Source of the DNA: Sphaerosporella brunnea
Lineage: Eukaryota > Ascomycota > Pezizomycetes > Pezizales > Pyronemataceae
DNA: 45,284 bases
Direction: 5' to 3'
Assembly: GCA_008704415.1 (NCBI GenBank)
Contig: VXIS01000359.1
Coordinates: 1-45,284, forward strand
Part shown: in pieces, positions 1 to 45,284 of the stretch
Layout: each line of letters begins with the position of its first letter
How positions within the stretch are numbered: position 1 is the first letter of the stretch
Made by a program: the position numbers and the translations under genes
The notes under the pieces: generated by a model
Seen by the model: the letters and a program-made list of their open reading frames with translations, nothing else
Databases searched by the model: none
What the model was told of the DNA's origin: nothing

Positions 1-3000
1 ACTGCATAGGAGAGATCAACCCCTGTTTCGCCCGTCCAAGGGATAGGACCCAAGGGCAGTCTACATGTGCTCTTTATGTCATGGCCGCAAGCGGCCGAAT
101 ACATTATGATTAAAAAAAAAAAAACCAGACAAGCTTTTTCGGAGTTCCAAATGCGGTGCGACGATATATTACCCCGCATTGACATGCGCGGCCCTGCATG
201 AATCAACCACTCGGGAAGGTCTTATCAGTTGCCGGTGGGCTGTTTTTTTTATCATAATAGCGTAAGGCTTACTTGAATTCAGAGGCAATGAAGTCAACAT
301 GTTGCCTGCAATGGCCATGGCTGTTGGGTGATCCCACTAGAGTTGCGCTTCTGCTCTACTAGTGTTCGGACAAAACTGACCTCGTTTTTGGTTATTCGGT
401 CCCATAATTCGGTCTTGTCTGTAAATTTTTCATTTCTACACGATCGTGCAAAAGGGGGGTTTACAATGATCAGGGGTAAAATTTACAACGACTAGGAACC
501 GGGGGGGCATCAACTATAGATTTGCGATGATCATCAAGGTCAATGGTCAGTGTAAACCGTTATTCCAACGGTTTCCCTCAACGTGAACAGAGCAGACACG
601 GAGGCGGAGCAGGAGCGGAGACAGAGGTCTACTAGGCTAGACCCAAGAGCAACCAAGAAACCAGAGTCGAATAGGATACAAGAGGTTGCGTGAGGAAGAA
701 GGAACGAAACACTGTGGGAAGGATGAATGTAGCGATCCATGCAACAGTCCTTGAAAAACTGACCCGTTCATAAAGTGGTACCCATCAAGTGTGATGCCAT
801 GAGTGTCATCCCTCACTACCTCTATCTCAAGAAACCAGATTCACACCTTGAAAAATAGCAACATCCAACCCTTCACATCTATACTTAAACCTTGAGATCC
901 ATCCTCGAGTAATATCCACGTAAGGTTTCTTTGGCCGATGGTTTCAAGTTTGCCAATGGCTGCCAATCGCATTCTATGTATCCAACCTATTCCAGATACT
1001 GACGTCTCCACTGATGAGATTGCGTTGTTCTCTTCTTGCCGTGTACAGTCAAATCAATAGACTACTGCAAAAGAGACATCAACCCCTCAAGTGTCACCCC
1101 CTCCTTCAGTGACCCCGTCGATGACTGACCCCTTCACCCGACACGACATGTCATTTGCTAGCCTGCGCCCATCCATGGGATAGAAGGCTGGAGACATGTT
1201 GGCAGGACTACGATATGCATACACCCTGGCAATAGAGTACAGTCCTTCAGCCCCGCGCAGAGAACATTCTAGGCTGCCTTTTTTTTGGTCGTGAAACCCT
1301 GCGCGTGCGCAGATCAGGCAGCCGAAACAATCTGCCTTCCTGTGTTATGCAGGACGTAACCCCGCCGGAATTTTGTCTTGCATCCCCGCCAAAAATTCAA
1401 ACATACCGGCATAGTGAAGCGTATCGATATCGTGCTGATATCATGGTCGAGTGCGGCGCAGCCTTGCAGCCGATAAGCCAGCAGGTACAACGTCGCCTTG
1501 ATAGCCGGGGTGGTCATTGTTTGCTACAGGATAGCTGGAATAGTTCGACCAAACAAAACCGCGCAACCCGTAGGATTCCATCTGTGAGGGGGCCAATTTC
1601 CTTTCCTTGAATGGATGCTTGCAATTGAGTTTTGATTGCTCCAAGAAATTAGGGGTAACTGCGACCCCAATAAGGATCGGAGAAGAATGAGCTGCTTTTT
1701 TTAATTCCCATGTTACTCTGTAACTGATGTGATTGAGTTCAGCAAGGCATCTATTCAATCGCCGATTGGCAGTATCATGATCGTGAGCTGCCTTGACCCC
1801 GCTCCATCGGCTGGCAGGGGGGCCATCAAGAAGGCCGAGCCCGCAAAGCCACTATGGCGTCAATGAGCATACGGGCTTGCCTGATATGTGGGTAGAACGG
1901 AGGGATAGCTGTTCAATTGATGCAGCTGGTGAATAAAAGCAGTCTTACCGTTCTGTTCTCGAGGCCGTAGAACATGGCAGCCACAGGCAGGGTATCAGTG
2001 ATCAGCCTGGAGCCGCACCGTTGAGAGCCTAGCGCACGGACAAAAAGGTGAGGAAACATGTTTCAGCCTAGGCAACAAATGCGGACCCCAGTTTGCTGGC
2101 TGAGGCGGCTGAACAAACGCATGGTCATGATCAACTCAGGCACAACCATGGGATTAGTTTCCGTGACTGAAAAGTGCGCCGGAGCAAGTGTCACAGCTGC
2201 CCAGCCTCAATGCCCAATGGACACACAGTCTGTAGAAGGTCTTCATTTCCGCACTCGAACTTCGCTATCCGGGTAAATCCAAGCACTGATCGCTGCGGGC
2301 AAAGTTCCCAGAGCATCCAATCAAGTGGAATTATGCCTTGCCATGGCCCGTGGGTCAGATGATTCCGTATCATTTCTCCGTGAATGTGGTGAATGTGATT
2401 GGAAGAGTCAGCGATCAGATATGCACGGGTGCATATCGAGCACTGCCACCTTCTGGTACGACCGCTCCGTTCGAACATCTCCGCACACTAGCTGAGCCAC
2501 AGCCGGGGCGCGGGGACCATAGCAGGAACCTGAATAGTGCGAATTAAAGACCGAGAAGAAGCTGAATGATATGAGTTGAGTGCGCGGCAGCGCTTAATTT
2601 AACGCGGCTTGCAAACCATGGTCGCCTCGGCTACGCCAGAGTGCATCTCGTATGACTCTCCGCCGAACACATTCACGTCATGTCGAACGATCCGAATTTC
2701 TGCCACGGCGCGGCGAATTGGCCACATGTCGTCAAGAATGGCCGCAGCACAACTGGTGATCAGCGGATAGTGGCATGCCGCATGCGCGGCGACGGCAACG
2801 CCTTCCCGCCCAGTCCGGCACGGATTCTTAGCCAAATACACAAGCATGCGAGCCGGTTTGCAGCGGCCAGGCACTGCAGTGGAGCGAAAGTCTCGCAATC
2901 GTTCCCTTTTAGTATGACATATCCGTGTGAGGCGATCAGGCACCAGACGAGATGATCTTTGGCAGTCGTTGGATCTTCTAGATCTACGGTAAAGCATTTT

Positions 3001-3480
3001 CAGCTGCCACGGCTTCCAGTGAAATGCATCGAAGCACGTAGCAGGGACGTCATTCCGGCGTTGCGATATCGAGCCGGGCCGCTGGGCTGGCGGTTTACAG
3101 GCCTCAATATGTTCGTGTGAGGCGCTTATTGGGCGCCCTAACAGTGCGGGCTCAGCCTTGATGTTTGCGGAGTTGCCGAGTGGGGCCCGGCGCGGCGTTT
3201 GTGAACTCCGAGACAGCGTACGTACGCCCCCGGCACCCCTGGCCGGCATTTGTCAGCAAAATGCGAGGGGTGGAAGCTTACTCGATGAAGAAATTACTGA
3301 GGTGTGCAAATCACCAGAGTGAGAAAGTCTCGCCCTCCGCATTTTATTTGTTCCAACAATTATCCTCTCGGGGACCATGCACAATAAGAGAGGGGATGAG
3401 GGTACATATTTCCCAGATCCGCCTGTCATGTCAGCCTTGCTCTAGGTCGAATTCGAATAACTTCGAGTTGGTGGTACGTG
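1..3480. other. Region without a recognisable gene
   Basis: No family I recognise is encoded here on either strand. Several short open frames exist; the longest is 216 codons on the minus strand (2599-3249), with no motif, no hydrophobic segment and an Arg/Pro/Ser-rich composition. A frame at 1441-1758 (-) contains a short stretch that looks more protein-like but ends without any domain. The region may be degraded intergenic DNA. An A-run of 15 bases lies at 109-123. Confidence 0.5.
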
Positions 3481-3487
3481 ATGGCGG

Positions 3488-3494
3488 TTATAAA
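3488..3494 (+). promoter_or_regulatory. TATA-like box before VWA gene
   Basis: TTATAAAG lies about 110 bases before the ATG at 3601. It is followed by a C/A-rich leader (CACAACGACAACAACC) typical of fungal 5' untranslated regions. This favours 3601 or 3607 as the true start over the upstream in-frame ATG at 3481. Confidence 0.3.
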
Positions 3495-3600
3495 GAAGGA
3501 TAAAACCCCTCGCCCTTCCAGCTGCCCCCAACCTCCAACACCACAACGACAACAACCACCCGCTACCAACCCTCACAAAAGACACGGTAGTATAAAACTC

Positions 3601-4506
3601 ATGATCATGGCGCTCAAATCACTCATCGGTACCATCACCGGTAGAAACAACTCCCGGAAGGAGAAATCACCCACATCACCCACTTCGAAAAAAACCATCT
3701 TCCGTCGTCGTATGAACGAGCGCCAAATGGATCCTCCCCCGCCCCCCTACGATCATCCAGGCAACTCTCGACAGCCCAACACACAGCCAAACCCCTTTGC
3801 AGACCAGGACCTCTCCCTACAGCGCGCATCCACCTTCCGCGATGTGCCAACTCAAGACCCTTACGCAGCGCTCAGCCGTTTTGATACCGTTTTCCTTATC
3901 GACGATAGCGGAAGTATGAGCGGCAGCAACTGGAGCCAGACCTCGGCTGCGCTAGCCGCAATCGTGCCGGTGTGCACGGCATACGATTCCGACGGCGTCG
4001 ATATCCACTTCCTCAACAACTCACGGCCGCACTACGGGGTGCGGTCGGCGGGTGATGTCATGCAGATCTTTTCATCCGTTTCGCCGTTTGGAACAACGCC
4101 AACTGGTGCCCGCTTGGGGGACTTGTTACAAAAGTATTTGTCTGCGTACAAGAAGAATCGCGCTATTAAGCCATTAAACATCATATGCATCACGGATGGT
4201 GAACCGACGGATCCTGCGAAGCTAGAGAAAGCAATTGTTAAGGCGGCGAAGGAATTGGATGTTCTAGATGCACGAGATCGGCAGGTGGGGATTCAGTTCT
4301 TCCAGGTGGGAAGCGATGAGAGTGCTACGGAGGCGCTCGAGGAACTGGATAACAGCTTGGTGGAGGAACATGGGGTCCGGGATATGGTTGATACGGTTAG
4401 CTGGAAGCAGATGAATGGAGGACGTGGGTTGACGGGTGATGGAGTGCTCAAGGCCGTCATGGGCGCCATCGATGGAAAGCTCGATCGGAAGAGAAAGCTT
4501 TACTGA
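3601..4506 (+). CDS. VWA-domain protein, probable cytosolic metal-dependent binding protein
   Basis: About 301 residues from the ATG at 3601; a second ATG follows at 3607, and the open frame also reaches an ATG at 3481, giving a longer low-complexity N-terminus. The first 90 residues are basic and Pro/Ser-rich with a poly-Pro run and look disordered. A von Willebrand factor A fold follows. The metal-ion-dependent adhesion site is complete: DxSxS in FLIDDSGSMSG (about residues 101-105), the threonine in PFGTTPTGARL (about 166-168) and the aspartate in ICITDGEPTD (about 199). There is no signal peptide or membrane segment, so an intracellular protein-binding role is likely. Similar single-VWA proteins are common and mostly uncharacterised in ascomycetes. 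No intron is needed. The nearest neighbours are a gene-poor region and a MITE, so context adds nothing about function. Confidence 0.85.
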   Translation: MIMALKSLIGTITGRNNSRKEKSPTSPTSKKTIFRRRMNERQMDPPPPPYDHPGNSRQPNTQPNPFADQDLSLQRASTFRDVPTQDPYAALSRFDTVFLIDDSGSMSGSNWSQTSAALAAIVPVCTAYDSDGVDIHFLNNSRPHYGVRSAGDVMQIFSSVSPFGTTPTGARLGDLLQKYLSAYKKNRAIKPLNIICITDGEPTDPAKLEKAIVKAAKELDVLDARDRQVGIQFFQVGSDESATEALEELDNSLVEEHGVRDMVDTVSWKQMNGGRGLTGDGVLKAVMGAIDGKLDRKRKLY

Positions 4507-5795
4507 GCACGCAATGTTTTGCATAGCAGATTAGACCGGTGCCACCGTTCAGTGGCACTTACGGCAGACCTTGATGTTTCTTGTACACGCTTTTGTTTTC
4601 GCGGCCCCATTACAGGCGTTCTGAGGCGTTTGAGGGAGATGGACTCTGCCATTTTTTCCTAGGGTTATTATGGGCTTCAACAGCGGTGCGCGCTGCGCAG
4701 TTTCCTTTTTTGTCTGCGGTCTATGTATGTACATGGGCAGGTTATGATTCATCGACATAGCGAACAATGGATCTGGTTATATGACTCAGCTCTCACTGAC
4801 CTCTTCAATTTTAAGTTCAGCTCGCCCTACGCTTGCAGCTTTATTTTCTAATTTCGGTTTTCAAATTGGTTGTGATTTTAACCTTCGCCACCCAGCCTTA
4901 TGGAATACGCGCAAAAACTCACAACCAGCGAACTTTTCCCGCAGGAGCGTTGGCCAAGCCTTATGCAAGGCTCGGGTGTCAGAGTGTCCTTGAAGGGGAT
5001 ATCGGTTGTCCACAGGGCAAGGCTGAAACCATGAAACGCTGGTCACGATCGCCTAGTTTCAAGGGCAGTGCATCACCGTGCATGCGAGGCGAAGGTATTG
5101 AGGCGCTCGAGCCTCATTGCTTTTGATCCTCCTAGGCAGGCGCCTCATCCTTTGAGACAAGGCAATTTGGTAACTGTTCTACAACCCAACAAACATCAAC
5201 CCGCGCGCCAACTCTGCGGCGAAGGGATTCGAAGGTCACATCGGTGGCTATGCGCATAGTTATATGCAGGCCTTGTGCGGGGTACCGGCTCGTTCTGATA
5301 CTTTGGACAAGTATCGACGAACCCCTCACTTGATCATGAGTCAATATATATGCAGTTGATCGATCACATTTTTCTGCTTTGGAGAGCCGTAGGCCAGCCT
5401 GACTGCTCCGCACTTATCACTGGGCCAAATGGAAGCTTATGACCTACAGCTATTGTTCATATGTGCTTCTAGAGTAAGGAAGGTCCTTTTTTTTTTTTTT
5501 TCTGCCTCGTCGCCTCGCACGTGGGAAATCGTGTGAAATGTCTTTGCCATCTGCTTTCTGCCGTTGCAGTTGGCGCCGCGCCGTGGTGACGGTTGCCAAC
5601 GCGAATGGCTTTCAACCACCACTCATCAGATCTCACATCATCGCATTGACACGTGGTTTAAAAAAAACCCCCAGATCCAGATGTTTCGCCCAACACATGA
5701 TTGAGGCTTCGGATCCTAGATTGTTGAAAACTGCAGCCCGGTTCCCCTGCAGCTACTACCTACACTGGTAGCGTGAGGCTTGGCCGTCTTGTGCT
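4507..5795. other. Intergenic region, nothing recognised
   Basis: There are only short open frames with no recognisable motif. A T-run of 17 bases lies at 5487-5503 on the plus strand. No RNA gene was seen. Confidence 0.5.
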
Positions 5796-6355
5796 TAGAG
5801 TGCCGGACACTTAGTAGGGGTAGTGTGACAGGGGGTCAACGCCCGCAATAACCCCCCCACGCCGACCTTTATAACACCCCACAACGAAAAAAAGAATTTA
5901 ATTAAGTCCCGAGGAACGATAGAGTAGGATGCAAAGAGCAATACTTCGGGACTAAAATTCGATTTGATGGCGTGGTGGTGGAGCTATAACGGCTAGAAAG
6001 TCATGTGTTTTTTGGTGGCGGAGGTTTTATATGAAAGCGGCTCTGCGCGGCTCTGCGCGGCTCAATTACCCTCGCTATACCCAATTAGGGAAAGTGATTG
6101 TCGAGTGACTTTAGATGATCTCGCATAAATGTGTACCGAATGCATCATCATCGATTTTGACCCTAAAAGTAACAAAGAACGAACTTTTGACTGAGAGAAA
6201 ATGTGTTATCAGTTGAAAATAGTGTGAGTTATTCATGTTTGGGCGGGGACTTTACACACATGAGCCATCACTCGCTGCTTAATAATCAAGGACAGCAATT
6301 TGAAATTGCCAAGACTTTGCCAAGGCGCTAGCCCTACTAAGTGTCCGGCACTCTA
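5796..6355. mobile_element. MITE 1, TA target duplication, 22-bp terminal inverted repeats
   Basis: GAGTGCCGGACACTTAGTAG-GG begins at 5798 and its exact reverse complement ends at 6353, giving a 556-bp element. Both ends are flanked by TA (5796-5797 and 6354-6355), the target duplication of Tc1/mariner/pogo (Fot1)-type transposons. The inside holds no transposase frame; it contains C-runs, an AT-rich core and a 10-bp direct repeat (GCGGCTCTGC, 2.7 copies near 6037-6063). It is therefore a non-autonomous miniature element. It ends only 57 bases before the ATG of the next gene, so it probably supplies part of that gene's promoter or leader. Confidence 0.8.
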
Positions 6356-6412
6356 GAAGGAGCAAGCTCATTCAACCATTCGATAGACGGAGCCTGAGAC
6401 AGCACGACAATC

Positions 6413-7399
6413 ATGCCTCCCAAGTCAGCAACAACGAAGGATCGCAGCAAGAAGAACACAAAGGTCAACAAGGGGAACCGGAGTTTGCCTCCACCGGCGG
6501 AAGATGATGATAGCACGAAATGCGATGCAATACTGGTTACCCGATCGGAACTCGGAGAGGAGGAAGAAATGAAGCAGGACGCCAAAGATGCGCTCGGACA
6601 GGCACTGCAAGAGGAGGAAGAAATGAAGCAGGACGCCAAAGATGCGCTCGGACAGGCACTGCAAGAGGAGGAACTCCACGTTGAGGACGTGAGGGGAGAT
6701 CTTTTCGTCGGTAATCGCCGCGGTCTTAGCTTCGCCAATTACAAGGTGGATCAAGCAGATCTTCGGGCTCGCGTTGATGCACAGGACAAGAAGATCGCTT
6801 CGCAGGATATCAAGATCGCTTCGCAGGATATCAAGATCGCTTCTCTGGAGGACCGCGTGAGCAGTCTGACGCGTTCGCTCGACGCTTACAAACTCCTGAG
6901 GAGCCGTTTCATCAGCACTTTCAAGCGTGATAAGCTTGCCAACGCAACCGAGGCAGACAAGAGAATTATCGGAACGGGCAACGCGTGGGCGCACGGAGGG
7001 GATGCGGTTGTCGATGCCTTGCTGTATACAGGCACAGGTGGAAGAAGAGATTTCAAAGCTTTCGAGAAGCTGTACGGGTTTCTGCCTGAGACAGTGCAAA
7101 GGATTAGTGAGTTCTTTGCTATTTTCAAAATTGCAAGGCTAACACGCTCAGGTCATCAGCCAACAATCGACGTCATGAACACTCACGCCGCGGTGATCGC
7201 CTCGAATTACAAAACCGGCAGCGACAAGTTTTACAAGCTGTTTGCAGAGTTTGTCAATCTCTTCAAGGAGTCGGGCGAGGGTTATGAGCAGGGTTATTTG
7301 GATGGGAACCCGACGGACGTGACTCACGCATACTGGGCGTTTGTGAACTGTATCAACCATGAGGTTACGAGGGTCGAGGCCGCGGAGGCCAGTGATTAG
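6413..7399 (+). CDS. Coiled-coil hypothetical protein with tandem repeats, one intron
   Basis: I do not recognise the family. The N-terminus is lysine-rich (nuclear-signal-like) and is followed by 2.2 copies of an 18-residue acidic repeat containing EEMKQDAKDALGQALQ, encoded by exact 54-bp tandem DNA copies at 6557-6610 and 6611-6664. Next come heptads KIASQDI repeated every 21 bases (6791, 6812, 6833) that run into LEDRVSSL, a clear coiled coil. The C-terminal 170 residues look globular. A 45-base intron is likely at 7107-7151: GTGAGT donor, GCTAAC branch site and CTCAG acceptor. It is in frame, so the product is about 313 residues spliced or 328 unspliced. MITE 1 sits 57 bases upstream. A structural or scaffolding role is possible but unproven. 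Confidence 0.6.
   Translation: MPPKSATTKDRSKKNTKVNKGNRSLPPPAEDDDSTKCDAILVTRSELGEEEEMKQDAKDALGQALQEEEEMKQDAKDALGQALQEEELHVEDVRGDLFVGNRRGLSFANYKVDQADLRARVDAQDKKIASQDIKIASQDIKIASLEDRVSSLTRSLDAYKLLRSRFISTFKRDKLANATEADKRIIGTGNAWAHGGDAVVDALLYTGTGGRRDFKAFEKLYGFLPETVQRISEFFAIFKIARLTRSGHQPTIDVMNTHAAVIASNYKTGSDKFYKLFAEFVNLFKESGEGYEQGYLDGNPTDVTHAYWAFVNCINHEVTRVEAAEASD
7107..7151 (+). other. Predicted 45-base intron
   Basis: GTGAGT donor, GCTAAC branch site 10 bases before a CTCAG acceptor. Its length is a multiple of three and it holds no stop, so reading through it would also keep the frame. Confidence 0.6.
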
Positions 7400-8007
7400 A
7401 CGAAGTCTTTTTTCCTTTGGTGTTTCGGTGAATAGATGGCAATGGAGTTTCGGTTGTATGGCGATTCGGCTGGGCGAATTATGTAATTTGTTATTGATGT
7501 ATTATACTATGAATTTGGGGGACCCCTTGAGCGAAGCGAAAGAGGGGGGGGGGGGGCTTCCTCTGCTTCTTCTTCTTCTTTTTGCGCCCGCGACGGCACA
7601 AGAAAAAAAAATACGTATTTACCATTTACCATGGCAGTCAAGATCCAAACCGGGCTTACATTCCGGCATGCAAAGCCACTTGTGCGGCCAGCAGAACCCC
7701 AGGAAGGCACCAGCCCGGGCCAGAGCTCCAACTCTTGCTTTGCGAGCGCCACTGGGTCATTCTCACCGGTTGGACAAGCTGTAAAGAACTTTTGGAATGT
7801 TTCTACAAACATTCAAACGGATATCTGACGTGCGTTTTTTTTTTTTTACCTGGCGGGTGGGATAGCCATTCTGGGGAGGCAGGATCCGAAATAGAATACC
7901 ATTGGCGGTGCCCCAAAGGCAGAAGATATCTTGATATCTAATTAGAGTTCTATCGATCTATCTAGGTAGATCTAGATCGATCCCGCTTCTTCCACCACTC
8001 ATATCCC
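7400..8007. other. Intergenic region between convergent genes
   Basis: It contains a G13 run (7544-7556), CTT repeats, a T-run near 7836-7848 and a self-complementary block near 7950-7980 (ATCGATCTA / TAGATCGAT around a 12-base loop) that could fold in the 3' region of the phosphatase transcript. No gene seen. Confidence 0.45.
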
Positions 8008-8715
8008 TTACTTCTCTGCAGCCTCAACAAGCTCCCAAACGCCTCCCAGCACCAGGGCGGGCTCCTCCACGCGCTCGTGCGCATACCCAAGCACACCAAT
8101 ACCGCCGGGATCCAACGTCATGACCAAATTCATCTCCAGCGGGAAGCCCAACCAGCGTTTTGCGAACGCCCTCAAAAAGTGGCCATGGCTAACAATCAAG
8201 ACATCCTGCGGTTCATTGCATCCATGCAGCTCGCCGCCCTTCAAAAACCTTCCCTGCAGGCCCTTGATCATCGCGATAACCTCGTCGATCCTCCCCGTCA
8301 GCGCCTCGGGGCTCTCGCCCCCCGCGCCCTCCGTTCCGTCCCGCCAGATATCCCACGCCCGCTCGCAGTCGTACCCGCGCCCCTTGCGCAACGCGCGGAT
8401 CTGCGCCGGCGTGAGCCCCTCGTAATCCCCATACCCCCACTCCCGCACGCGGTCCTCCGTCTGCACCACCGCCCGCGCCGGCGTCTCCGGCAGCAGGTGC
8501 GCCAGGGTCTGCTGCGCGCGTAGACGTGGGGAAACGAAGATGTGCGAGAGCCGCGCGGGGTCGATGACGCGGTTGGGGCCGACCGCGGTTCGCGCGGTTG
8601 CGTCGATTGTGAGCGCGCCGCGTGCCGTCAGCGGAAGGTCCGTAATCGACGTGTGCGCGCCGGTGAGCGTCCACGGTGTCTCGCCGTGGCGGCAGAGGAT
8701 TAGGCGAGGCGGCAT
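8008..8715 (-). CDS. Histidine-phosphatase (phosphoglycerate-mutase-like), SHB17-type sedoheptulose bisphosphatase
   Basis: 235 residues in one exon from the ATG at 8715. The catalytic RHGE motif is at residues 9-12 (phospho-acceptor His10), with conserved SPR (62-64), the acid/base glutamate in REWGYGDYEG (91-100) and the second catalytic histidine in IVSHGHF (His177). The segment TGAHTSITDLPLT matches the family of yeast Shb17, the sedoheptulose-1,7-bisphosphatase that feeds riboneogenesis in the non-oxidative pentose phosphate pathway. That substrate is inferred from the family; a broader sugar-phosphate phosphatase is possible. It is cytosolic, with no signal peptide. The gene is unusually GC-rich compared with its flanks, as expected of a conserved, well-expressed fungal gene. 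Confidence 0.85.
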   Translation of the reverse strand: MPPRLILCRHGETPWTLTGAHTSITDLPLTARGALTIDATARTAVGPNRVIDPARLSHIFVSPRLRAQQTLAHLLPETPARAVVQTEDRVREWGYGDYEGLTPAQIRALRKGRGYDCERAWDIWRDGTEGAGGESPEALTGRIDEVIAMIKGLQGRFLKGGELHGCNEPQDVLIVSHGHFLRAFAKRWLGFPLEMNLVMTLDPGGIGVLGYAHERVEEPALVLGGVWELVEAAEK

Positions 8716-10971
8716 TGCGATGGCGTGAGGCGGTGCTTGTGGAAGCTCCGAGAAAAAGCGGAAAGTGGGGTAGAAGAGGGGGTTTTAATTGGTGAATCAC
8801 GTGGTGGTGACTTGCTATGCCGGTCGAAGAACAAAAACCTACTCTACAATTTGATCATGAAGGCAAAGAATTAAGGACCGCTTACGATCAGGCATCAAGC
8901 GTATCTGAGAGCAGCGCTCGCGCTAGAGCCGGGTGGGCTGTTGGACGCTCGAATGATCTCCAGGCACGTCGCTGTCTATGAGCAGCGTACATACTCGACG
9001 TCGTGACTTGAGTTGAGCCCAAACGGCCAACCCGCAGCCGAAACAGCCAATCCAGCCAGCCAGCTATTGAGACCACTGGTCTTTAGTCTTAAAAACAACA
9101 GTTATTGTCCAAAGACGTATACATTGCGATCGTCGGTCAAAATCCTCGAAGGCAACAGCCGAGTGATATCACATGATGCTTGCACCTGAGCAGAAACCGT
9201 AAGTGCCATTCAGGCTGCTCATTGACCATTGTCTTGAAGCGAGCAGAAACTTCCATTTGTTCGAAATCCAAAACGGTGTTCATATCGGGGGGCTGAGTCC
9301 CTCAAATTCACGGGCTCCAGTGAGGTCTCGCCCAGTTCACCGACACTTGCTGATGTTAGAAAATTTTCAGGACAGCTGTTGAACAAGCCCGCAGAAGCTT
9401 TGCCTGCGCTCTCGACGCAGCCTACGCACCCTAGGAGAGCGTGTTAAGTTTCTTGAAACGTTCCCTGGTAAACTGCTACCTCCATTTTCTTGTGGCGGTC
9501 GCCATTCTTTGGATGGCCATGGTGAGTCTGGCAACCCCCCCCCCCCCCCGGCCAAAGGGGAAGGGGTACGGACTGAAAGGCCCTTTGCATTATCAGCCAT
9601 TTTCCAACCGGATAGCATCCCCTTTGGCGCTTGTCTATATTCCTTCCAATAGCCTCAGTCTCAGTTGTAAAGAAGGGACTGGAAGTGCAGCTAGACCCCG
9701 ACCCAATGCGTCCATCCCCCATGACTTCCCAGAGACGCTCTTCTACACGCACCACTACAGGCCACCTGCCCCCGCCGCAGACGTCCCCGCTCCACTTATT
9801 ATCCCCACAACACCATCTCAGCGGTCCTCTCCTTCCGCCCACCACAATCCTCGCACTCCGACCATTACCAACACCCCACGTCCAAGGCCAGTAAGGTGGC
9901 GAAGACGGCGTCTGCCCCGTCCCGTCCTGCTGTCCATACGATGCGGTCCCAGCCGACCTACGGAAAGTGGGACATCGAGATCAGCATCGATGTGCCAGAG
10001 GGCCTTGAGTATATCCAGTGGGCCCTGCGCCGTCAATGTTTCAGTGCCGGCGAAGAGGAGAGTGAGGAGGCGATGGGGATGACGATGAGGAGGGACGATG
10101 GAGAAGGAAAAGGAACAAGATGGATTTTTTTTTGGATTTTTTGGATTTTTCCATAGATTCTCTTCATACAAAATACCAGCAAGCCATTGCGCAAACGACG
10201 CTCAGGTTGGGCAATCTCCGTAGAGGTAGAACTTCTCCACTCTATTGAAACGTCCCGATACAAGCATAGCACGAGGGGTGATTGTACATACTTGATATAG
10301 GGAATTTGGCTGCTTACCCGCTTAATCATTCTTGTCAATATCATGTGGACTCCAAACAGCACTGGACATTTTTGGAGAGACACTATTAACACAAGCGCAA
10401 ACTTGCCTGCGTCGTCTACAAAAGCCGCCCAGTCTCAAGATTGAATTTTTTTTTACCTTAGTGTGTTTTTTTCCCACAACTCCCATGGTGAAGTGATTTT
10501 TCGTGTCCGAGAATTCCGGGACATGACGCTGGCAATAACAGAGTATTGTACTATGTGGGGTTGCCGCACGCAGACACGTTGCGGCCATTTCCAGCAGGTC
10601 AATCAGCTTAACATCCAGTGCGGCCCTGGTGATTATATATACCTTATATTTCTAAGAGGAACTTTTCAGAGAGGGGCAGACAATTGGATCGCAGACTGGG
10701 GCTGCGAGGTGATGAGGATTGTTTTGGGACTTTTCCCTGCCCGAGGAAGTGGCATCGACACAGTACCTCCACGCGTAAACAACGTGTTTTACAAAGACTT
10801 GCACTATCAATTTTATACAAACAGAGCTATCTTAAGGACTATCCGCTGACCGTGGCAACGTCGCCTCGTTGCGCGCGCCGCCACTCATGATCTCCTCCAA
10901 TAACGCGGTCTCCGACTGTGCTTGCGACCGGCATCTGACAGCATCGACAGATCTCGCGACAACTCCCTTCA
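8716..10971. other. 2.2-kb region without a convincing gene
   Basis: Small overlapping frames exist on both strands. A plus-strand segment near 9690-9890 followed by 9896-10110 (containing YGKWDIEISIDVPEGLEYIQ) has some protein-like composition and could be a small spliced gene, but I cannot define exons. A frame at 10463-10849 (+) has no recognisable motif. The region also holds a C15 run (9535-9549) and T-rich runs near 10125-10150. Confidence 0.4.
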
Positions 10972-13468
10972 CTAATCAGTCTCCAGCTCGAATGATGCTT
11001 GGCGAGCTAAGGTACATACCTTCATTTGAACAACGGAGGCCAACAGCAACAGTAACTGCTTCAACTGTGGAACCTTGGATGGAACCTCCAGAAGCCTTTC
11101 ATTTTTCAATACACATATATAGCCTTTCGGATGGCACAACCGCAACATCATGAGCGCGCGGCCCGCGGTGATAAACCCCACGACCTGCAATTTCTTGACA
11201 AGAGTAGGTTCATGCTCCACGATCTGATGCAGCCGGTCAAGCATATCTCGCAAAGCTCTGACGAGTTTCTGGGTATCACGCAACCACTTTGTTGACGATG
11301 TACCGCCATCAAGTGTGCGCGCAACCTCCATACCACCGTACTCATGAGAATCGTCTTCCACGCTGCGTATAATTCCATCAAGGCGCGGGCCGGACTTCAT
11401 CCGCATCCTTGTGTCGGTACGCTCACGGTTTTTGCGTATAGCAGTGGCGCGGCATGTGGCTTCTACTCTGAAGCAATGAAAGTCAGCAAAGTAGGTGGAA
11501 CAGCGGAGTTAAAAACAGATATTACCGTTGGATGGATATGTCGTCAAAGGACAGAAAGCAATCGTCGAGAAGGGACCAAACATGTATCGAATACCAGCCT
11601 TCAAGATGGTCCTTGCGCAAGAGTTGTCCAGACTCGAAGAGTACTAGACTGTTGCAGTCAACATCAAGGGCCGTGGCCGGGATACACAGGGGCTACATAC
11701 AACGCGCGTAATACATTATCGGCCCATTCCGAGTCAAAATGCAGAGCTCGGTCATAAGGAGTGCCCACGGGCCGGTAAGGTACGGTTTCCAAGACGCGTC
11801 GCAGGTCTGCAGTGGTTTGAACCTTGTCATGGTCAACATCTAGGCAACTGCTGGTTTAAATAGGATGGGTACATTATGAAAGCGGGCCAACGATCTCGCA
11901 AATTCGGCGTTCGGTTCTGGCAACGGAGGAACGCTGGAACAGATCTCCTCCCATTCCTTGTCGGTGAACCACTTCTTCATCATATCGTTTCCGAGGTCGA
12001 TAGTCCAATCGCGAACCAAACTGTCGGGAAAAGAATCATCACACTCGCCGCAGTTGGCTTCGTAGGCTGCATAGAGAACATCTTCAACCGCACGCTCGGA
12101 GCATGTGAGAATCCATTTCTTGCCACGGTTAAAGCCGGCGAATGAACTTTGAAAGGCAGCCTCCAAAGTTAAGGTTTCGTCAGGTTCCGTGTCGGATGGA
12201 GGTTCAACCGCATCTTCTGTTCCGGTGCCTTGAATTTCGCTTCGTTGATATGCGTCGCCAGTGATAGTAGAATTTATGACCATATGTCCGACATGGCCGA
12301 CATGGACATTTCCGACATTTTCGACATTTTCGACATTGAGGTGATCGCTGGGCGGCTGTGATTTGTTCGCACGGGCTCTATCCGAGGCACGAGTACGTTT
12401 CTGTCGACACAACCCAATAAAACAGTGAGAACGGGACCACGCTGGACGATAGGGTAGGGCTTGTGCCGAGCACAATATAAACGAGCATAGAAGGTCGTTT
12501 GTGGAGCATAGAAGGTCCTGCCCAATACCCACACGGCCAGTACAAAGCGAGCATAGGAGATCGCTTAAGGGAGCATAGAAGGTCCCCGAGGTCACCATCA
12601 TCACTGCTGAACGAGGGGGCAGGCTGGGCACGAGCATAGAAGGTCCCGCCCAATGGATGCCTGCCCTCGGCCAAAGCGAGCATAGAAGATCGCTTAAGGG
12701 AGCATAGAAGGTCCCTGAGCAGAGGGAGGGCAATGTAAACGAGCATAGAAGGTCGTTTATGGAGCATAGAAGGTCCTGCCGTGCCCTCAAAGCCAGGTCA
12801 AAGCAAGCATAGAAGGTCGCTTAAGGGAGCATAGAAGGTCCCCGGGCAGGCTGGGCATTATGCTGAGCACAGGAGCATAGAAGGTCCTGCCCAATAAATG
12901 CCGTACCCTCTTGACTAGGCCAAAGCGAGCATAGGAGATCGCTCAGGGGAGCATAGAAGGTCCCTAGTGGACAAGGACAGGCTGGGCATTGTGCTGTGCA
13001 CAAATAAACGAGCGTAGAAGATCGTTTATGGAGCATAGAAGGTCCTGCCCAATAGATGCCGTGTCCTCACGACCGAGGCAAGCGAGCATAGGAGGTCGCT
13101 TATGGGGGCATAGAAGCAGAGGGCAGGCAATATAAACGAGCATAGAAGGTCGTTCATATGGAGCATAGAAGGTCCTGCCGTGCCCTCATGACCATGCCAA
13201 AGCGAGCATAGAAGATCGCTTAGGGGGAGGCCGATTGCAACACCAACACGGCGGAACGCACCTTGTTGTAGTATGAAGTGAGAAGAGTGTCAGCGCGGTC
13301 GCGACACTGTTCGTCGCAGCAATTCTGTTTGCAAGAGGCGATTTTTCGGAGTGTAGCCACCCACGAGCCGGATATGTCGCGTTGCTTTCGGGCTCGATAG
13401 AATCGCATGTAGCTTTCGAGATTCCAGTCGCTGGGGGACAGTTCGAAGAATGCCGTTCTGTGTGCCAT
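10972..13468 (-). CDS. Five-exon uncharacterised fungal protein; intron 1 holds the hairpin array
   Basis: Predicted exons, in transcript order: 13468-13262, 12400-11873, 11822-11701, 11648-11526 and 11467-10972, giving about 491 residues with phase kept at every junction. Introns 2-4 (50, 52, 58 bases) have good signals, e.g. GTATGT...TTGACTGCAACAG and GTAATA...GCTGAC...TTCAG. Intron 1 (13261-12401, GTGCGT...GACAG) is 861 bases long. The protein starts MAHRTAFFELSPSDWN, has a short 9-bp-encoded repeat (VENVENVGNVHVGHVGH), an acidic stretch, then a conserved-looking C-terminal half (RLDGIIR...YGGMEVAR...KLVRALRDMLDRL...LQVVGFITAGR...PKGYICVLK...LEVP). This resembles a widespread family of uncharacterised fungal proteins I recall; a degenerate PD-(D/E)XK nuclease fold is only a guess. 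A GTATGT donor near 11017 suggests an alternative last exon. Confidence 0.65.
12401..13261 (-). other. 861-base intron 1, host of the hairpin array
   Basis: In the minus-strand sense it runs from AAG|GTGCGTTCC at 13262/13261 to GTCGACAG|AAACG at 12401/12400. Joining at these sites keeps phase 0 and links exon 1 to the downstream frame. An alternative is that a stop at about 13220 ends a short separate gene. It is roughly fifteen times longer than the other introns of this gene, almost wholly because of the repeat array. Confidence 0.6.
12479..13221. repeat. Array of 21 covarying hairpin repeats with conserved loop GCATAGAAGG
   Basis: Each unit is a 10-base loop, GCATAGAAGG (variants GCATAGAAGA, GCATAGGAGA, GCGTAGAAGA), inside a perfect or near-perfect stem. 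Units: 12479-12500, 12503-12518, 12545-12566, 12569-12586, 12631-12646 (weak), 12674-12695, 12697-12716, 12736-12759, 12761-12776, 12801-12822 (one mismatch), 12825-12842, 12870-12889, 12923-12943, 12947-12964, 13004-13029, 13030-13045, 13080-13101, 13104-13117 (truncated), 13135-13154, 13160-13175, 13200-13221. Stems are AAACGA/TCGTTT (up to 8 bp with flanks), AAGCGA/TCGCTT, GGGA/TCCC, CAGGA/TCCTG or GGA/TCC. Both stem sides change together while the loop stays fixed. In the transcript of the host gene the loop reads CCTTCTATGC. Confidence 0.9.
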
Positions 13469-14156
13469 GACTAGAGGGCTCGTTGTCGGGTAGCCCCCCT
13501 AAGAAACCGCGGAAAAGACAGCGAAAGAGCGATGGTGACAAAAACGTCCGAAAGGAGCGAACGAGGTGGTAAGGTAGAGATGACGCGACAGAAACATCGT
13601 GAAAGGTGACAAGAAGGGGCGAGGGATTATAGGTGAAGTTCGAACGGGAGCGAAAAAGAGGGCTGGGGAGACAGATAATGAAGGGGCTGGGGGGTGGGGA
13701 GACACCTAATGAGGGGGCTGGGGGAACCGGTTGGCAGAGTTTTCTTGGCGCCTTGGCGGGCGGGGTTCCCTCCGCCGACTTTTACTCGATTGGGTTCCAA
13801 TACAAGCCATCACTCGCTTTTTCCTTTTGTGGTTAAAACTTGGCACTCCAAAATCCGGTTTCCGTGATGCCAAGAAATAGGAATTACTTAGTTAGCCTAA
13901 AGAACTGCCGAGTGACATCACATGAATTTCAACACAGAATGACTTCTATGTGAACAGTGAGAAATGGCATACCGGAGCTACTTAGTATTCCCAGAAAGTG
14001 GCGAAGTGCTACGATTTTCTCTCACTAAAAATAAACTCTCGACAAAACGCTTCTCCCTCGGCACCACAGAGTAAGTAGAGTACCCAAAATCCCACAAAAA
14101 CATCAAGACATTTTCCTCTTCCCCTAGCGTACCGTTTCCAACTCTCCATCCACAGC
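13469..14156. other. Promoter side of five-exon gene; G-rich block
   Basis: There is no gene here. At 13660-13730 a GGGGCTGGGG-type motif repeats about three times with G-runs of 4-6 on the plus strand, a possible G-quadruplex about 200 bases upstream of the minus-strand start at 13468. Confidence 0.45.
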
Positions 14157-14645: not shown

Positions 14646-15086
14646 TTCGATGGTGTTTTAAACAAAAATGGAAATGCTTGAATCGTGTTGGTGGTGATGC
14701 TCGGGTGGTCGGTTTGTGTTTTAGAGATGCCAGACTGCATTTTTATACCCTTTTAATGGCGTGCGATCTTGTCCGCGGTCCGTGATGGCCGGCGGTGATC
14801 AGGCAATACAATCGGCGCATTTCCAACATTTGGAGTTCTTTGGGTTCGTCGATTACTGATTCCCGAGAACTCGGCCCGTTTAGTGATCCAAGAAGCCTCG
14901 GTCCGTTTAGTGATCCGAGAGGCCTGCCGCGGCTAACCAGAGTACCAGCTGGGGTCGATCCTTGCGGGAACTAACCGAACATGGACGCGGGGCGGCGGCA
15001 ACGTACCTGGCCGCCAACCCCACTCCGTGACCCGTGCCGCCTCGCAACTTGATCGCACAACATCGTCTCCAACCCACAGCATCCCA
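14646..15086. promoter_or_regulatory. Shared divergent promoter region
   Basis: These 441 bases separate the tautomerase (minus) and oxidoreductase (plus) start codons. A near-direct repeat, CGGNCCGTTTAGTGATCC(A/G)AGA, occurs twice at about 14873-14892 and 14900-14921 and could be a regulator site. A TATAAAA-like sequence (read on the minus strand, near 14741-14746) lies about 95 bases before the tautomerase start. Confidence 0.4.
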
Positions 15087-17644: not shown

Positions 17645-17673
17645 TGGAAACTGGGGGGACCTCAAACTCACAC

Positions 17674-31944: not shown

Positions 31945-34439
31945 ATGGCACACAGAACGGCATTCTTCGAACTGTCCCCCAGCGACTGGAATCTCGAAAG
32001 CTACATGCGATTCTATCGAGCCCGAAAGCAACGCGACATATCCGGCTCGTGGGTGGCTACACTCCGAAAAATCGCCTCTTGCAAACAGAATTGCTGCGAC
32101 GAACAGTGTCGCGACCGCGCTGACACTCTTCTCACTTCATACTACAACAAGGTGCGTTCCGCCGTGTTGGTGTTGCAATCGGCCTCCCCCTAAGCGATCT
32201 TCTATGCTCGCTTTGGCATGGTCATGAGGGCACGGCAGGACCTTCTATGCTCCATATGAACGACCTTCTATGCTCGTTTATATTGCCTGCCCTCTGCTTC
32301 TATGCCCCCATAAGCGACCTCCTATGCTCGCTTGCCTCGGTCGTGAGGACACGGCATCTATTGGGCAGGACCTTCTATGCTCCATAAACGATCTTCTACG
32401 CTCGTTTATTTGTGCACAGCACAATGCCCAGCCTGTCCTTGTCCACTAGGGACCTTCTATGCTCCCCTGAGCGATCTCCTATGCTCGCTTTGGCCTAGTC
32501 AAGAGGGTACGGCATTTATTGGGCAGGACCTTCTATGCTCCTGTGCTCAGCATAATGCCCAGCCTGCCCGGGGACCTTCTATGCTCCCTTAAGCGACCTT
32601 CTATGCTTGCTTTGACCTGGCTTTGAGGGCACGGCAGGACCTTCTATGCTCCATAAACGACCTTCTATGCTCGTTTACATTGCCCTCCCTCTGCTCAGGG
32701 ACCTTCTATGCTCCCTTAAGCGATCTTCTATGCTCGCTTTGGCCGAGGGCAGGCATCCATTGGGCGGGACCTTCTATGCTCGTGCCCAGCCTGCCCCCTC
32801 GTTCAGCAGTGATGATGGTGACCTCGGGGACCTTCTATGCTCCCTTAAGCGATCTCCTATGCTCGCTTTGTACTGGCCGTGTGGGTATTGGGCAGGACCT
32901 TCTATGCTCCACAAACGACCTTCTATGCTCGTTTATATTGTGCTCGGCACAAGCCCTACCCTATCGTCCAGCGTGGTCCCGTTCTCACTGTTTTATTGGG
33001 TTGTGTCGACAGAAACGTACTCGTGCCTCGGATAGAGCCCGTGCGAACAAATCACAGCCGCCCAGCGATCACCTCAATGTCGAAAATGTCGAAAATGTCG
33101 GAAATGTCCATGTCGGCCATGTCGGACATATGGTCATAAATTCTACTATCACTGGCGACGCATATCAACGAAGCGAAATTCAAGGCACCGGAACAGAAGA
33201 TGCGGTTGAACCTCCATCCGACACGGAACCTGACGAAACCTTAACTTTGGAGGCTGCCTTTCAAAGTTCATTCGCCGGCTTTAACCGTGGCAAGAATGGA
33301 TTCTCACATGCTCCGAGCGTGCGGTTGAAGATGTTCTCTATGCAGCCTACGAAGCCAACTGCGGCGAGTGTGATGATTCTTTTCCCGACAGTTTGGTTCG
33401 CGATTGGACTATCGACCTCGGAAACGATATGATGAAGAAGTGGTTCACCGACAAGGAATGGGAGGAGATCTGTTCCAGCGTTCCTCCGTTGCCAGAACCG
33501 AACGCCGAATTTGCGAGATCGTTGGCCCGCTTTCATAATGTACCCATCCTATTTAAACCAGCAGTTGCCTAGATGTTGACCATGACAAGGTTCAAACCAC
33601 TGCAGACCTGCGACGCGTCTTGGAAACCGTACCTTACCGGCCCGTGGGCACTCCTTATGACCGAGCTCTGCATTTTGACTCGGAATGGGCCGATAATGTA
33701 TTACGCGCGTTGTATGTAGCCCCTGTGTATCCCGGCCACGGCCCTTGATGTTGACTGCAACAGTCTAGTACTCTTCGAGTCTGGACAACTCTTGCGCAAG
33801 GACCATCTTGAAGGCTGGTATTCGATACATGTTTGGTCCCTTCTCGACGATTGCTTTCTGTCCTTTGACGACATATCCATCCAACGGTAATATCTGTTTT
33901 AACTCCGCTGTTCCACCTACTTTGCTGACTTTCATTGCTTCAGAGTAGAAGCCACATGCCGCGCCACTGCTATACGCAAAAACCGTGAGCGTACCGACAC
34001 AAGGATGCGGATGAAGTCCGGCCCGCGCCTTGATGGAATTATACGCAGCGTGGAAGACGATTCTCATGAGTACGGTGGTATGGAGGTTGCGCGCACACTT
34101 GATGGCGGTACATCGTCAACAAAGTGGTTGCGTGATACCCAGAAACTCGTCAGAGCTTTGCGAGATATGCTTGACCGGCTGCATCAGATCGTGGAGCATG
34201 AACCTACTCTTGTCAAGAAATTGCAGGTCGTGGGGTTTATCACCGCGGGCCGCGCGCTCATGATGTTGCGGTTGTGCCATCCGAAAGGCTATATATGTGT
34301 ATTGAAAAATGAAAGGCTTCTGGAGGTTCCATCCAAGGTTCCACAGTTGAAGCAGTTACTGTTGCTGTTGGCCTCCGTTGTTCAAATGAAGGTATGTACC
34401 TTAGCTCGCCAAGCATCATTCGAGCTGGAGACTGATTAG
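31945..34439 (+). pseudogene. Mirror copy of five-exon gene, single-base frameshift
   Basis: Exon 1 is 31945-32151, intron 1 is 32152-33012 and exon 2 starts at 33013. One A is missing in an A-run near 33297, which shifts the frame in exon 2; another base is lost in an intron near 33897. Otherwise it matches 10972-13468. Confidence 0.85.
32192..32934. repeat. Mirror copy of the hairpin array
   Basis: Same 21 units as 12479-13221, read with loop CCTTCTATGC on the plus strand, apparently without changes. Confidence 0.9.
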
Positions 34440-36622
34440 TGAAGGGAGTTGTCGCGAGATCTGTCGATGCTGTCAGATGCCGGTCGCAAGCACAGTCGGA
34501 GACCGCGTTATTGGAGGAGATCATGAGTGGCGGCGCGCGCAACGAGGCGACGTTGCCACGGTCAGCGGATAGTCCTTAAGATAGCTCTGTTTGTATAAAA
34601 TTGATAGTGCAAGTCTTTGTAAAACACGTTGTTTACGCGTGGAGGTACTGTGTCGATGCCACTTCCTCGGGCAGGGAAAAGTCCCAAAACAATCCTCATC
34701 ACCTCGCAGCCCCAGTCTGCGATCCAATTGTCTGCCCCTCTCTGAAAAGTTCCTCTTAGAAATATAAGGTATATATAATCACCAGGGCCGCACTGGATGT
34801 TAAGCTGATTGACCTGCTGGAAATGGCCGCAACGTGTCTGCGTGCGGCAACCCCACATAGTACAATACTCTGTTATTGCCAGCGTCATGTCCCGGAATTC
34901 TCGGACACGAAAAATCACTTCACCATGGGAGTTGTGGGAAAAAAACACACTAAGGTAAAAAAAATTCAATCTTGAGACTGGCGGCTTTTGTAGACGACGC
35001 AGGCAAGTTTGCGCTTGTGTAATAGTGGTCTCTCAAAAATGTCCAGTGCTGTTTGGATCCACATGATATTGACAAGAATGATTAAGCGGGTAAGCAGCCA
35101 AATTCCCTATATCAAGTATGTACAATCACCCTCGTGCTATGCTTGTATCGGGACGTTTCAATAGAGTGGAGAAGTGCTACCTCTACGGAGATTGCCCACC
35201 TGAGCGTCGTTTGCGCAATGCTTGCATGGTATTTTGTATGAAGAGAATCTATGAAAACCAAAAAATCAGTCCATCTTGTTCCTTGTCCTCTCCATCGTCC
35301 TCTCATCGTCATCCCATCGCCTCCTCACTTCTCCTCTTCGCCGCACTGAACATTGACGCGCAGGGCCACTGGATATACTCAAGGCCCTCTGGCACATCGA
35401 TGCTTGATCTCGATGTCCGCACTTTCGTAGAGTCGGCTGGGACCGCATCGTATGGACAGTCAGGTACGGGACGGGGCAGACGCCGTCTTCGCCACCTTAG
35501 CTGGCCTGGACGTGGGGTGTGGTTATGGTCGGAGTGCGAGGATTGTGGTGGGGCGGAAGGAGAGGACCGCTGCGATGGTGTTGTGGGGATAATAGTGGAG
35601 CGGACGTCTGCGGCGCAGTGGCCTGTAGTGTGCGTGTAGAAGAGCGTCTCTGGGAAGTCATGGGGGATGGGCGCATTGGGTCGGGGCTTAGCTGCATTCC
35701 AGTCCTTCTTTACAACTGAGACTGAGGCTATGAAGGAATATGACAAGCGCCAAGGGGATGCTATCCGGTGGAAGAATGGCTGATATGCAAAGGGCTTTCA
35801 GTCCGTACCCCTTCCCTTTGGCGGGCGTTGCCGGGACTCCATGGCCATCCAAAGAATGGCGACGCCACAAGACAATGCGGTAGCAGTTTACCAGGGAACG
35901 TTCAGAAAGACTTAACACGCTCTCCTAGGGTGCGTAGGCTGCGTCGAGAGCGCAGCAAAGCTTCTGCGGGCTTGTTCAACAGCTGTCTGGAAAATTTTCT
36001 ACATCAGCAAGTGTCGTGACTGGGCGAGACTCCACTGGAGCCGTGACATTGAGGGACTCAGCTTATGAACACCGTTGTGGATTTCGAACAAATGGAAGTT
36101 TCTGCTCGCTTCAAGACATGGTCCATGAGCAGCTGAATCGGCACTTACGGTTCTGCTCAGGTGCAAGCAATCATGTGATATCACATCTGGCTGTGCCTCG
36201 AGGATTTTGACGACGATCGCATGTATTCGTCTTTGCGACAATAACTGTTGGTTTTTTAAGACTAAAGACCAGTGTCTCAATAGCTGGCTGGCTGGATTGG
36301 CTGTTTCGGCTGCGGGTTGGCGTTGGGGCTCAACTCAAGTCACGACGTCGAGTATGTACGCTGCTCATAGACAGCGACGTGCCTGAGATCATTCGAGCGT
36401 CCAACAGCCCACCCGGCTCTAAGCGCGAGCGCTGCTCTCCGATACGCTGATGCCTGATCGTAAGCGGTCACTTAATTCTTTGCTTCATGATCAAATTGTA
36501 GAGTGGTTTTTGTCTTCGACCGGCCTATGCAGTCACCACCACGTGATTCACCAATTAAAACGCTTCTACCCACTTTCCGCTTTTTCTCGGAGCTTCCACA
36601 AAGCCCGCCTCACGCCATCGCA
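34440..36622. other. Mirror of 8716-10971
   Basis: No gene. It becomes error-rich from about 35000; the C15 run is collapsed near 35820-35835. Confidence 0.6.
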
Positions 36623-37311
36623 ATGCCGCCTCGCTATCCTCTGCCGCCACGGCGAGACACCGTGGACGTCTCACCGGCGCGCACACGTCGATACGGACCT
36701 CCGCTGACGACGCGGCGCGCTCCCAAGATCGACGCAACCGCGCGAACCGCGGTGCGGCCCCAACCGCGTCATCGACCCCGCGCGCTCTATCGCCACATCT
36801 TCGTTTCCCACGTCTACGCGCGCAGCAGACCCTGGCGCACCTGCTGCGGAGACGCGGCGCGGGCGGTGGTGCAGACGGAGGACCGCGTGCGGGAGTGGGG
36901 GTATGGGGATTACGAGGGGCTCACGCCGGCGCAGATCTGCGCGTTGCGCAAAGGGCGCGGGTACGACTGCGAGCGGGCGTGGCTATCTGGCGGGACGGAA
37001 CGGAGGGCGCCGCGCTGAGCCCGCGAGGCGCTGACGTGAGGATCGACGAGGTTATCGCGATGCTCAGGGCCTGCAGGAAGGTTTGTGAAGGCGGCGAGCT
37101 GCATGGATGCATGAACCGCAGGATGTCTTGATGTGTAGCCATGCCACTTTTTGAGGGCGTTCGCCAAACGCTGTTGCTTCCCGCTGGAGATGAATGTGGT
37201 CCTGACGTTGGATCCCGGCGGTATGGTGTGGCTTGGGTATGCGCACGAGCGCGTGAGGAGCCCGCCTGGTGCTGGAGGCGTTTGGGAGCTTGTTGAGGCT
37301 GCAGAGAATAA
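36623..37311 (+). pseudogene. Frameshifted mirror copy of SHB17-like phosphatase gene
   Basis: Mirror of 8008-8715. The catalytic RHGET segment is readable only out of frame with the start, and the frame breaks repeatedly. Confidence 0.9.
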
Positions 37312-37887
37312 GGGATATGATGGTGAAGAAGCGGGATCGATCTAGATCTACCTAGATAGATCGATAGACTCTAATTAGATATCAAGATATCTTCTGCCTT
37401 TGGGGCACCGCCAATGGTATTCTATTTCGGATCCCTGCCTCCCCAGAATGGCTATCCCACCCCCAGTACGCACGTCAGATATCCGTTGAATGTTTGTAGA
37501 AACATTCCAAAGTTCTTTACAGCTTGTTCCAACCGGTGAGAATGACCCAGTGCGCTCGCAAAGCAGAGTTGGAGCTCTGGCCCGGGCTGGTGCCTTCCTG
37601 GGGTTCTGCTGGCCGCACAAGTGGCTTTGCATGCCGGAATGTAAGCCCGGTTTGGATCTTGACTGCCATGGTAAATGGTAAATACGTATTTTTTTTTCTT
37701 GTGCCGTCGCGGGCGCAAAAAGAAGAAGAAGAAGCAGAGGAAGCTCTTTCGCTTCGCTCAAGGGGTCCCCCAAATTCATAGTATAATACATCAATAACAA
37801 ATTACATAATTCGCCAGCCGAATCGCCATACAACCGAAACTCCATTGCCATCTATTCACCGAAACACCAAAGGAAAAAAGACTTCGT
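37312..37887. other. Mirror of 7400-8007
   Basis: Non-coding; the G13 run is absent at about 37745. Confidence 0.65.
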
Positions 37888-38876: not shown

Positions 38877-38933
38877 GATTGTCGTGCTGTCTCAGGCTCC
38901 GTCTATCGAATGGTTGAATGAGCTTGCTCCTTC

Positions 38934-39493
38934 TAGAGTGCCGGACACTTAGTAGGGCTAGCGCCTTGGCAAAGTCTTGGCAATTTCAAATTGCTGTCCT
39001 TGATTATTAAGCAGCGAGTGATGGCTCATGTGTGTAAAGTCCCCGCCCAAACATGAATAACTCACACTATTTTCAACTGATAACACATTTTCTCTCAGTC
39101 AAAAGTTCGTTCTTTGTTACTTTTAGGGTCAAAATCGATGATGATGCATTCGGTACACATTTATGCGAGATCATCTAAAGTCACTCGACAATCACTTTCC
39201 CTAATTGGGTATAGCGAGGGTAATTGAGCCGCGCAGAGCCGCGCAGAGCCGCTTTCATATAAAACCTCCGCCACCAAAAAACACATGACTTTCTAGCCGT
39301 TATAGCTCCACCACCACGCCATCAAATCGAATTTTAGTCCCGAAGTATTGCTCTTTGCATCCTACTCTATCGTTCCTCGGGACTTAATTAAATTCTTTTT
39401 TTCGTTGTGGGGTGTTATAAAGGTCGGCGTGGGGGGGTTATTGCGGGCGTTGACCCCCTGTCACACTACCCCTACTAAGTGTCCGGCACTCTA
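38934..39493. mobile_element. Mirror copy of MITE 1
   Basis: Same TA flanks and 22-bp inverted ends as 5796-6355. Confidence 0.8.
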
Positions 39494-44600: not shown

Positions 44601-45284
44601 CAACCTCTTGTATCCTATTCGACTCTGTTTCTTGGTTGCTCTTGGGTCTAGCCTAGTAGACCTCTGTCTCCGCTCCTGCTCCGCCTCCGTGTCTGCTCTG
44701 TTCACGTTGAGGGAAACCGTTGGAATAACGGTTTACACTGACCATTGACCTTGATGATCATCGCAAATCTATAGTTGATGCCCCCCGGTTCCTAGTCGTT
44801 GTAAATTTTACCCCTGATCATTGTAAACCCCCCTTTTGCACGATCGTGTAGAAATGAAAAATTTACAGACAAGACCGAATTATGGGACCGAATAACCAAA
44901 AACGAGGTCAGTTTTGTCCGAACACTAGTAGAGCAGAAGCGCAACTCTAGTGGGATCACCCAACAGCCATGGCCATTGCAGCAACATGTTGACTTCATTG
45001 CCTCTGAATTCAAGTAAGCCTTACGCTATTATGATAAAAAAACAGCCCACCGGCAACTGATAAGACCTTCCCGAGTGGTTGATTCATGCAGGGCCGCGCA
45101 TGTCAATGCGGGGTAATATATCGTCGCACCGCATTTGGAACTCCGAAAAAGCTTGTCTGGTTTTTTTTTTTTAATCATAATGTATTCGGCCGCTTGCGGC
45201 CATGACATAAAGAGCACATGTAGACTGCCCTTGGGTCCTATCCCTTGGACGGGCGAAACAGGGGTTGATCTCTCCTATGCAGTA
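41689..45284. other. Mirror of 1-3600
   Basis: No recognisable gene; close to the left-arm sequence with a few indels, ending one base beyond the mirror of base 1. Confidence 0.6.

Follow-up and report, generated by a model that had tools for sequence, protein, structure and literature searches.

The contig studied here, C289 of the Sphaerosporella brunnea assembly, is most likely an artefact and not a real biological feature: we put the probability that its mirror arrangement originates from a missed SMRTbell adapter, however the outer parts of its arms were built, at about 95%. All coordinates without another contig name are those of C289, and the window (the stretch of DNA analysed, 45,284 nucleotides) spans the whole of it, so both window ends are ends of the contig. 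Self-comparison revealed a sole dominating inverted match, 1–22,621 against 45,283–22,859, with 97.67% identity over 22,749 columns, and the column alignment carries the mirror symmetry to the contig ends with an offset of one base. At the axis, alignment leaves 250 nt at 22,616–22,865 that belong to neither arm (Table 1). The arms are therefore reverse-complementary, join at one axis and terminate together. This bears out the sequence-only reading, which had described a palindrome with arms of 22.4–22.6 kb, symmetric to within one base of the ends, and had placed the junction exactly where the axis alignment finds it. The same reading took the symmetric ends as the sign of an artefact; the symmetry is real but not decisive alone, and it is the adapter that decides.

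Both arms run to ...GGTxGTCGAG and then into the hairpin stem. The 250-nt centre starts with TCTCTCTTTGTCCTCCCCTC and finishes with CCGTTGTTGTTGTTGGAGAGAT, matching the two halves of the SMRTbell adapter (sequence as given in the available part of PMC12745853). The right part is strong: its score of 41 compares with a maximum of 31 in 60 shuffles against the whole window and is reached by none of 1,000 shuffles against the 600-bp centre (maximum 28), and the gapped right-part pattern has a single exact match in the whole 50.6 Mb assembly, at this axis. The left part is weak alone: in this pyrimidine-rich stretch its score of 32 is attained by 5 of 1,000 shuffles, and it no more than equals the best of 60 shuffles against the whole window. 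The adapter is also not intact, as its halves lie 208 nt apart and the centre measures 250 nt against the 45 nt expected. The intervening run consists of 141 T, 58 C, 7 G and 2 A; such a pyrimidine content (199/208) compares with at most 146/200 in arm A, scanned in 200-bp windows with 50-bp steps, and the run is likely to represent spurious bases from a stalled polymerase. What lies at the junction is thus a library adapter, with a strong right part and a weak left part, and not the native sequence that a biological duplication would have there.

Table 1. Features of the mirrored contig, in contig coordinates
Feature	Position	Strand	Evidence
Arm A, genomic insert, one pass, better of the two sequences	1–22,615	+	self-match, alignment, ORFs open
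Block in which the arms are ~9% different, mostly bases absent from arm B	7,474–10,454 (mirror 34,957–37,814)	+	alignment
Axis-adjoining block in which the arms are ~5% different	16,458–22,615 (mirror 22,866–28,954)	+	alignment
SMRTbell adapter, left part: stem, then TTT and CCTCC letters	22,616–22,635	+	score 32
Pyrimidine run of 208 nt within the adapter loop	22,636–22,843	+	composition
SMRTbell adapter, right part, CCGTTGTTGTTGTTG-GAGAGAT, one base short of published	22,844–22,865	+	score 41
Arm B, opposite pass of that insert, with more errors and several broken frames	22,866–45,284	-	alignment, ORF and homologue comparison

The provenance of the data agrees with the presence of such an adapter. 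According to the available text of the S. brunnea genome paper (PMC6908789), the data come from PacBio SMRTbell libraries, prepared as low-input 10-kb libraries and assembled with Falcon 0.3.0, finisherSC and Arrow at 907.91x coverage into 872 contigs and 51.6 Mb, with the raw reads under SRP214822 and SRP215074. The assembly searched here has 640 contigs and 50,565,648 bases, so it may be another version.

The adapter at the axis is not confined to this contig. Searched for with at most 3 mismatches, the final 21 bases of the adapter gave 14 sites in the assembly against 3 for the reversed-pattern control, and among the 12 sites examined three are flanked by inverted arms (C178, C451 and C504), while nine are without arms. 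Adapter scores are 36–39 at the three palindromic loci, compared with 27, 29 and 31 at three plus-strand loci that lack arms; for six minus-strand loci only the arms, and no score, were considered. At 14 control loci none of the inverted matches listed exceeds 119 bp. In C451 the arms, 1–5,294 and 5,591–10,448, are 91% alike and start at the first base of the contig; those of C178, 65,755–67,284 and 68,217–69,910, are 84% alike and reach the contig end; those of C504, 7,796–10,752 and 11,116–15,401, match in three pieces at 68–79%. The left adapter half is weak in C451 and C178 as well (scores 25 and 28, not compared with shuffles). Segments of all three contigs (C451 4,000–5,400, C504 7,800–10,000 and C178 68,219–69,910), when searched against the assembly, gave matches in their own contig only.

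C504 goes one step further. Its return pass stops at 15,401, where a noisy 60-nt adapter-like stretch follows (15,399–15,458); the full adapter scores 35 there and its right half 29, above the shuffle maxima of 32 (500 shuffles) and 24, whereas the left half, at 18, is no better than the shuffle mean of 19. A third pass then runs in the direct orientation, 7,849–9,495 matching 15,614–17,649 at 76%. The order forward, adapter, back, adapter, forward is that expected from a polymerase on a circular SMRTbell, and C504 7,796–18,550 is therefore likely a multi-pass read that was left unsplit and entered the assembly as genome, with three passes and two noisy adapters.

Other search patterns were less productive. 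The first right-part pattern that we used, again with at most 3 mismatches, hit three sites, in C178, C97 and C504, and C97 was set aside, its site being without inverted arms; a gapped pattern with the adapter halves 1–30 nt apart found no match in the assembly. The left adapter half is a poor search key: at most 3 mismatches gave 11 sites (2 for the reversed-pattern control), and of the 8 examined only one, in C388, lies in a long inverted repeat. That repeat, 1–3,839 with 4,777–8,620, is 99.8% identical and begins at the contig's first base, and its centre contains 22 exact bases of the adapter left half on the minus strand; the centre is, however, 937 nt long and asymmetric, which misfits a simple missed-adapter model, and we did not count C388 as a sister contig. 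At least 4 of the 640 contigs thus bear the adapter-at-axis mark, as found by a search that is not exhaustive.

The differences between the arms of C289 have the character of sequencing errors in raw or part-corrected reads. There are 78 substitutions; arm B has 248 deletion events and arm A 106, so that indels make up 354 of the 432 events (82%). Single bases account for 226 of the 248 deletions in arm B and 90 of the 106 in arm A, and 190 of the 226 single-base deletions of arm B lie within homopolymer runs at least two bases long. The events cluster strongly (variance/mean 27.2 in 1-kb bins), 412 of the 432 being confined to the two blocks of Table 1; arm identity is ~91% at 7.5–10.25 kb and ~95% at 16.5–22.6 kb. 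Elsewhere the arms agree base for base over 5,211 bp starting at about 1,359 and over 4,340 bp starting at about 12,118. A degenerate array is present at 12,457–13,226 (mirror 32,187–32,956); its related units are mostly 75–85% alike, and it overlaps the start of an ORF.

The same asymmetry is seen in the genes. Nine ORFs were compared, picked for being open in arm A, where the conserved ORFs are open, so the bias toward arm A is partly one of choice. Six of the nine are frameshifted in arm B, four of them by 18–63 frameshifting indels and the two others by 1 and 4, while three (VWA, tautomerase and GFO/IDH/MocA oxidoreductase) are identical in both arms. Arm A encodes a GDA1/CD39 protein with 100% identity to part of a 673-aa S. 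brunnea protein. The homologue of this GDA1/CD39 protein in Wilcoxina mikolae provides an independent check: in tblastn its residues 28–683 align to arm A in one frame at 73.7%, and residues 8–59 match immediately upstream in a different frame, which probably marks another exon, whereas arm B returns only pieces, in two frames and at 36–40%. A biological duplication would leave both copies open or in ordinary decay; in arm B the frame-breaking indels are instead concentrated in blocks. Rfam (gathering threshold) and tRNA scans gave no match.

How could such a contig arise? Most likely one read went along the insert, round the hairpin and back, stayed unsplit and was assembled as linear sequence. 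For the insert, a length of about 22.4 kb is likely and a minimum of 15 kb probable. The 208-nt spurious run, sitting in the loop at the sequencing-primer site, may have caused the splitter to miss the adapter, and the run itself would probably come from the polymerase stalling at that site. Falcon's seeding with the longest reads could then have favoured double-length reads, and the correction of arm B would have been only partial.

The extra bases may also hint at why adapters are missed in such data. All four contigs have an extra run in the same place, between the CCTCC and GTTG loop halves and inside the published primer site, although in C178 and C451 the weak left half makes it uncertain where the run begins; the runs measure 208, 106, 43 and 29 nt and are pyrimidine-rich (199/208, 71/106, 34/43 and 26/29). 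The sequencing primer ends in AACGGAGGAGGAGGA, as published in the accessible part of PMC7955037, and this end is complementary to TCCTCCTCCTCCGTT, so the 208-nt run falls within the primer site. One protocol, in the portion of PMC3504050 available to us, has the primer binding the hairpin adapter loops at a two-fold molar excess, and the available text of PMC7759464 mentions missed adapters without giving a cause. We tentatively suggest a mechanical cause, namely a stall at a second primer (or primer plus polymerase) on the far loop, followed by a burst of loop-templated bases and escape from the splitter, although we would not yet rate this as the probable one.

The sequence-only reading had called the contig almost certainly a single chimeric PacBio read. 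The turn round a hairpin is supported by the axis adapter and by three sister contigs, one of them three-pass; the contig itself is a corrected or polished consensus and not a raw read, as the long identical runs between the arms indicate. That one read underlies all 45 kb is likely. Independent errors show the arm sequences to be separate at about 7,474–37,814, which speaks for one molecule, read in both directions, over at least these ~30 kb, and single-base differences reaching as far out as position 124 favour a single read over the full length. The same artefact could, however, have been built differently: a shorter unsplit read would turn at the centre and Falcon would extend both arms via the same corrected reads, without any 45-kb read. 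When the overlap graph is strand-symmetric, a palindromic read is extended in the same way at both of its ends, and the identical runs of 5,211 and 4,340 bp agree with such a build. So do the 10-kb library reported in the available text of PMC6908789, which counts against the insert of about 22.4 kb that a whole-window read needs, and the sister palindromes, whose aligned arms are only 1.5–5.3 kb; these two points are what favour shared corrected reads over a single 45-kb read. Such a build predicts near-identical arms beyond the turn, yet the arms differ by ~9% at 7,474–10,454, and the single-base differences out to position 124 also speak against it. We consider it possible but rather unlikely. 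The near-identical outer arms in themselves fit either a well-corrected 45-kb read or shared corrected reads used twice, and the origin from a missed adapter is common to both.

Explanations that dispense with the SMRTbell hairpin fare much worse. A real inverted duplication or a palindromic linear element (a hairpin chromosome end or a foldback amplicon) would account for two long near-identical arms and for unique arm sequence that is found nowhere else in the assembly, but not for an adapter at the axis of C289 and of three sister contigs, for the third pass and second adapter of C504, or for indel-dominated differences that break frames on one arm; we regard it as highly improbable. A whole-genome amplification chimera or a sequencing foldback is just as improbable. 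Amplified DNA commonly contains chimeras, and foldbacks have been described on both of the long-read platforms (according to the accessible parts of PMC6218980 and PMC12870357, respectively), and a low-input protocol was used here (PMC6908789, available text), but neither process puts SMRTbell adapter letters at the axis or yields a three-pass read punctuated by adapters. We therefore rejected the real palindrome, the amplification chimera and the foldback on the adapter evidence.

With the missed adapter as the preferred origin, the biological locus is probably a single copy of about 22.4–22.6 kb with ordinary fungal genes. The assembly was searched with the arm pieces 1–8,000, 8,001–16,000, 16,001–22,621 and 1,000–3,000, scoring the best candidates only and skipping very common words. 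This piecewise search revealed no other copy of the arm locus in the assembly. What it did return were dispersed repeats and paralogues that are partial and mostly distant, the nearest long matches elsewhere being a 94% copy of about 16,352–17,229 on C468 and a 560-bp element. As the arm is found once apart from these, the paired genes are most simply one locus counted twice. The claim that all duplicated genes are single-copy accordingly agrees with the whole-assembly arm searches, with the exception of the gene at 6,413–7,399, which belongs to a dispersed family.

Several repeats within the locus can be described from these searches. The element at 5,796–6,355 (mirror about 38,930–39,490), 560 bp long with terminal inverted repeats beginning TAGAGTGCCGGACACTTAGTAGGG, has a 100% identical copy at C65:83,720–84,279 and many whole or partial copies at 74–92%, and looks like a MITE-type DNA transposon. 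Another element, of 273 bp at 17,674–17,946 (mirror about 27,493–27,761), belongs to a second MITE-like family, with terminal inverted repeats of ~65 bp; its partial relatives in the assembly number in the dozens. The dispersed gene family lies at 6,360–7,473; its ORF, 6,413–7,399, is without a Pfam match. A 54-bp tandem repeat lies within this stretch, and at least 8 whole or partial relatives, 78–87% identical, occur on other contigs. The segment 16,352–17,229 contains an ORF of 243 aa (16,470–17,201), also without a Pfam match; its 94% identical copy is at C468:19,037–19,913, and weaker copies are found elsewhere.

For users of the data, the result is a warning: a public fungal assembly contains mirrored contigs in which a pair of genes is likely one gene entered twice, and C289 has frame-broken second copies. 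Checking the axes of inverted repeats for adapter halves detects such contigs from the assembly alone, even when there is no intact 45-nt adapter. Our literature search on palindromic contigs with a PacBio adapter found no paper. Missed adapters themselves are a named read artefact in the available texts of PMC6304105 and PMC7759464; the accessible portion of PMC3504050 gives adapters as retained in about 1% of reads, and that of PMC6218980 attributes palindromic reads to missed SMRTbell adapters. The fault is therefore already known and our finding is ordinary in kind, while its persistence in several contigs of a public assembly, together with look-alike stretched adapters, is slightly unusual.

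The closest known systems are the missed-adapter PacBio reads, whose reverse-complement concatemers are termed 'siamaeras' in the available text of PMC6557899 and which are split by PBJelly, patched by MARVEL and targeted by Pacasus. As far as these sources describe them, they share with C289 the joining at the adapter of opposite-strand subreads of one insert; in C289, in contrast, the artefact was carried through assembly into a contig, with an adapter stretched to 250 nt instead of 45 nt. The long-read foldback artefacts addressed by Breakinator (PMC12870357, in the part available) are similar in that they too are fold-backs of long reads, but the axis of C289 carries adapter letters, which makes the SMRTbell hairpin itself the likely fold.
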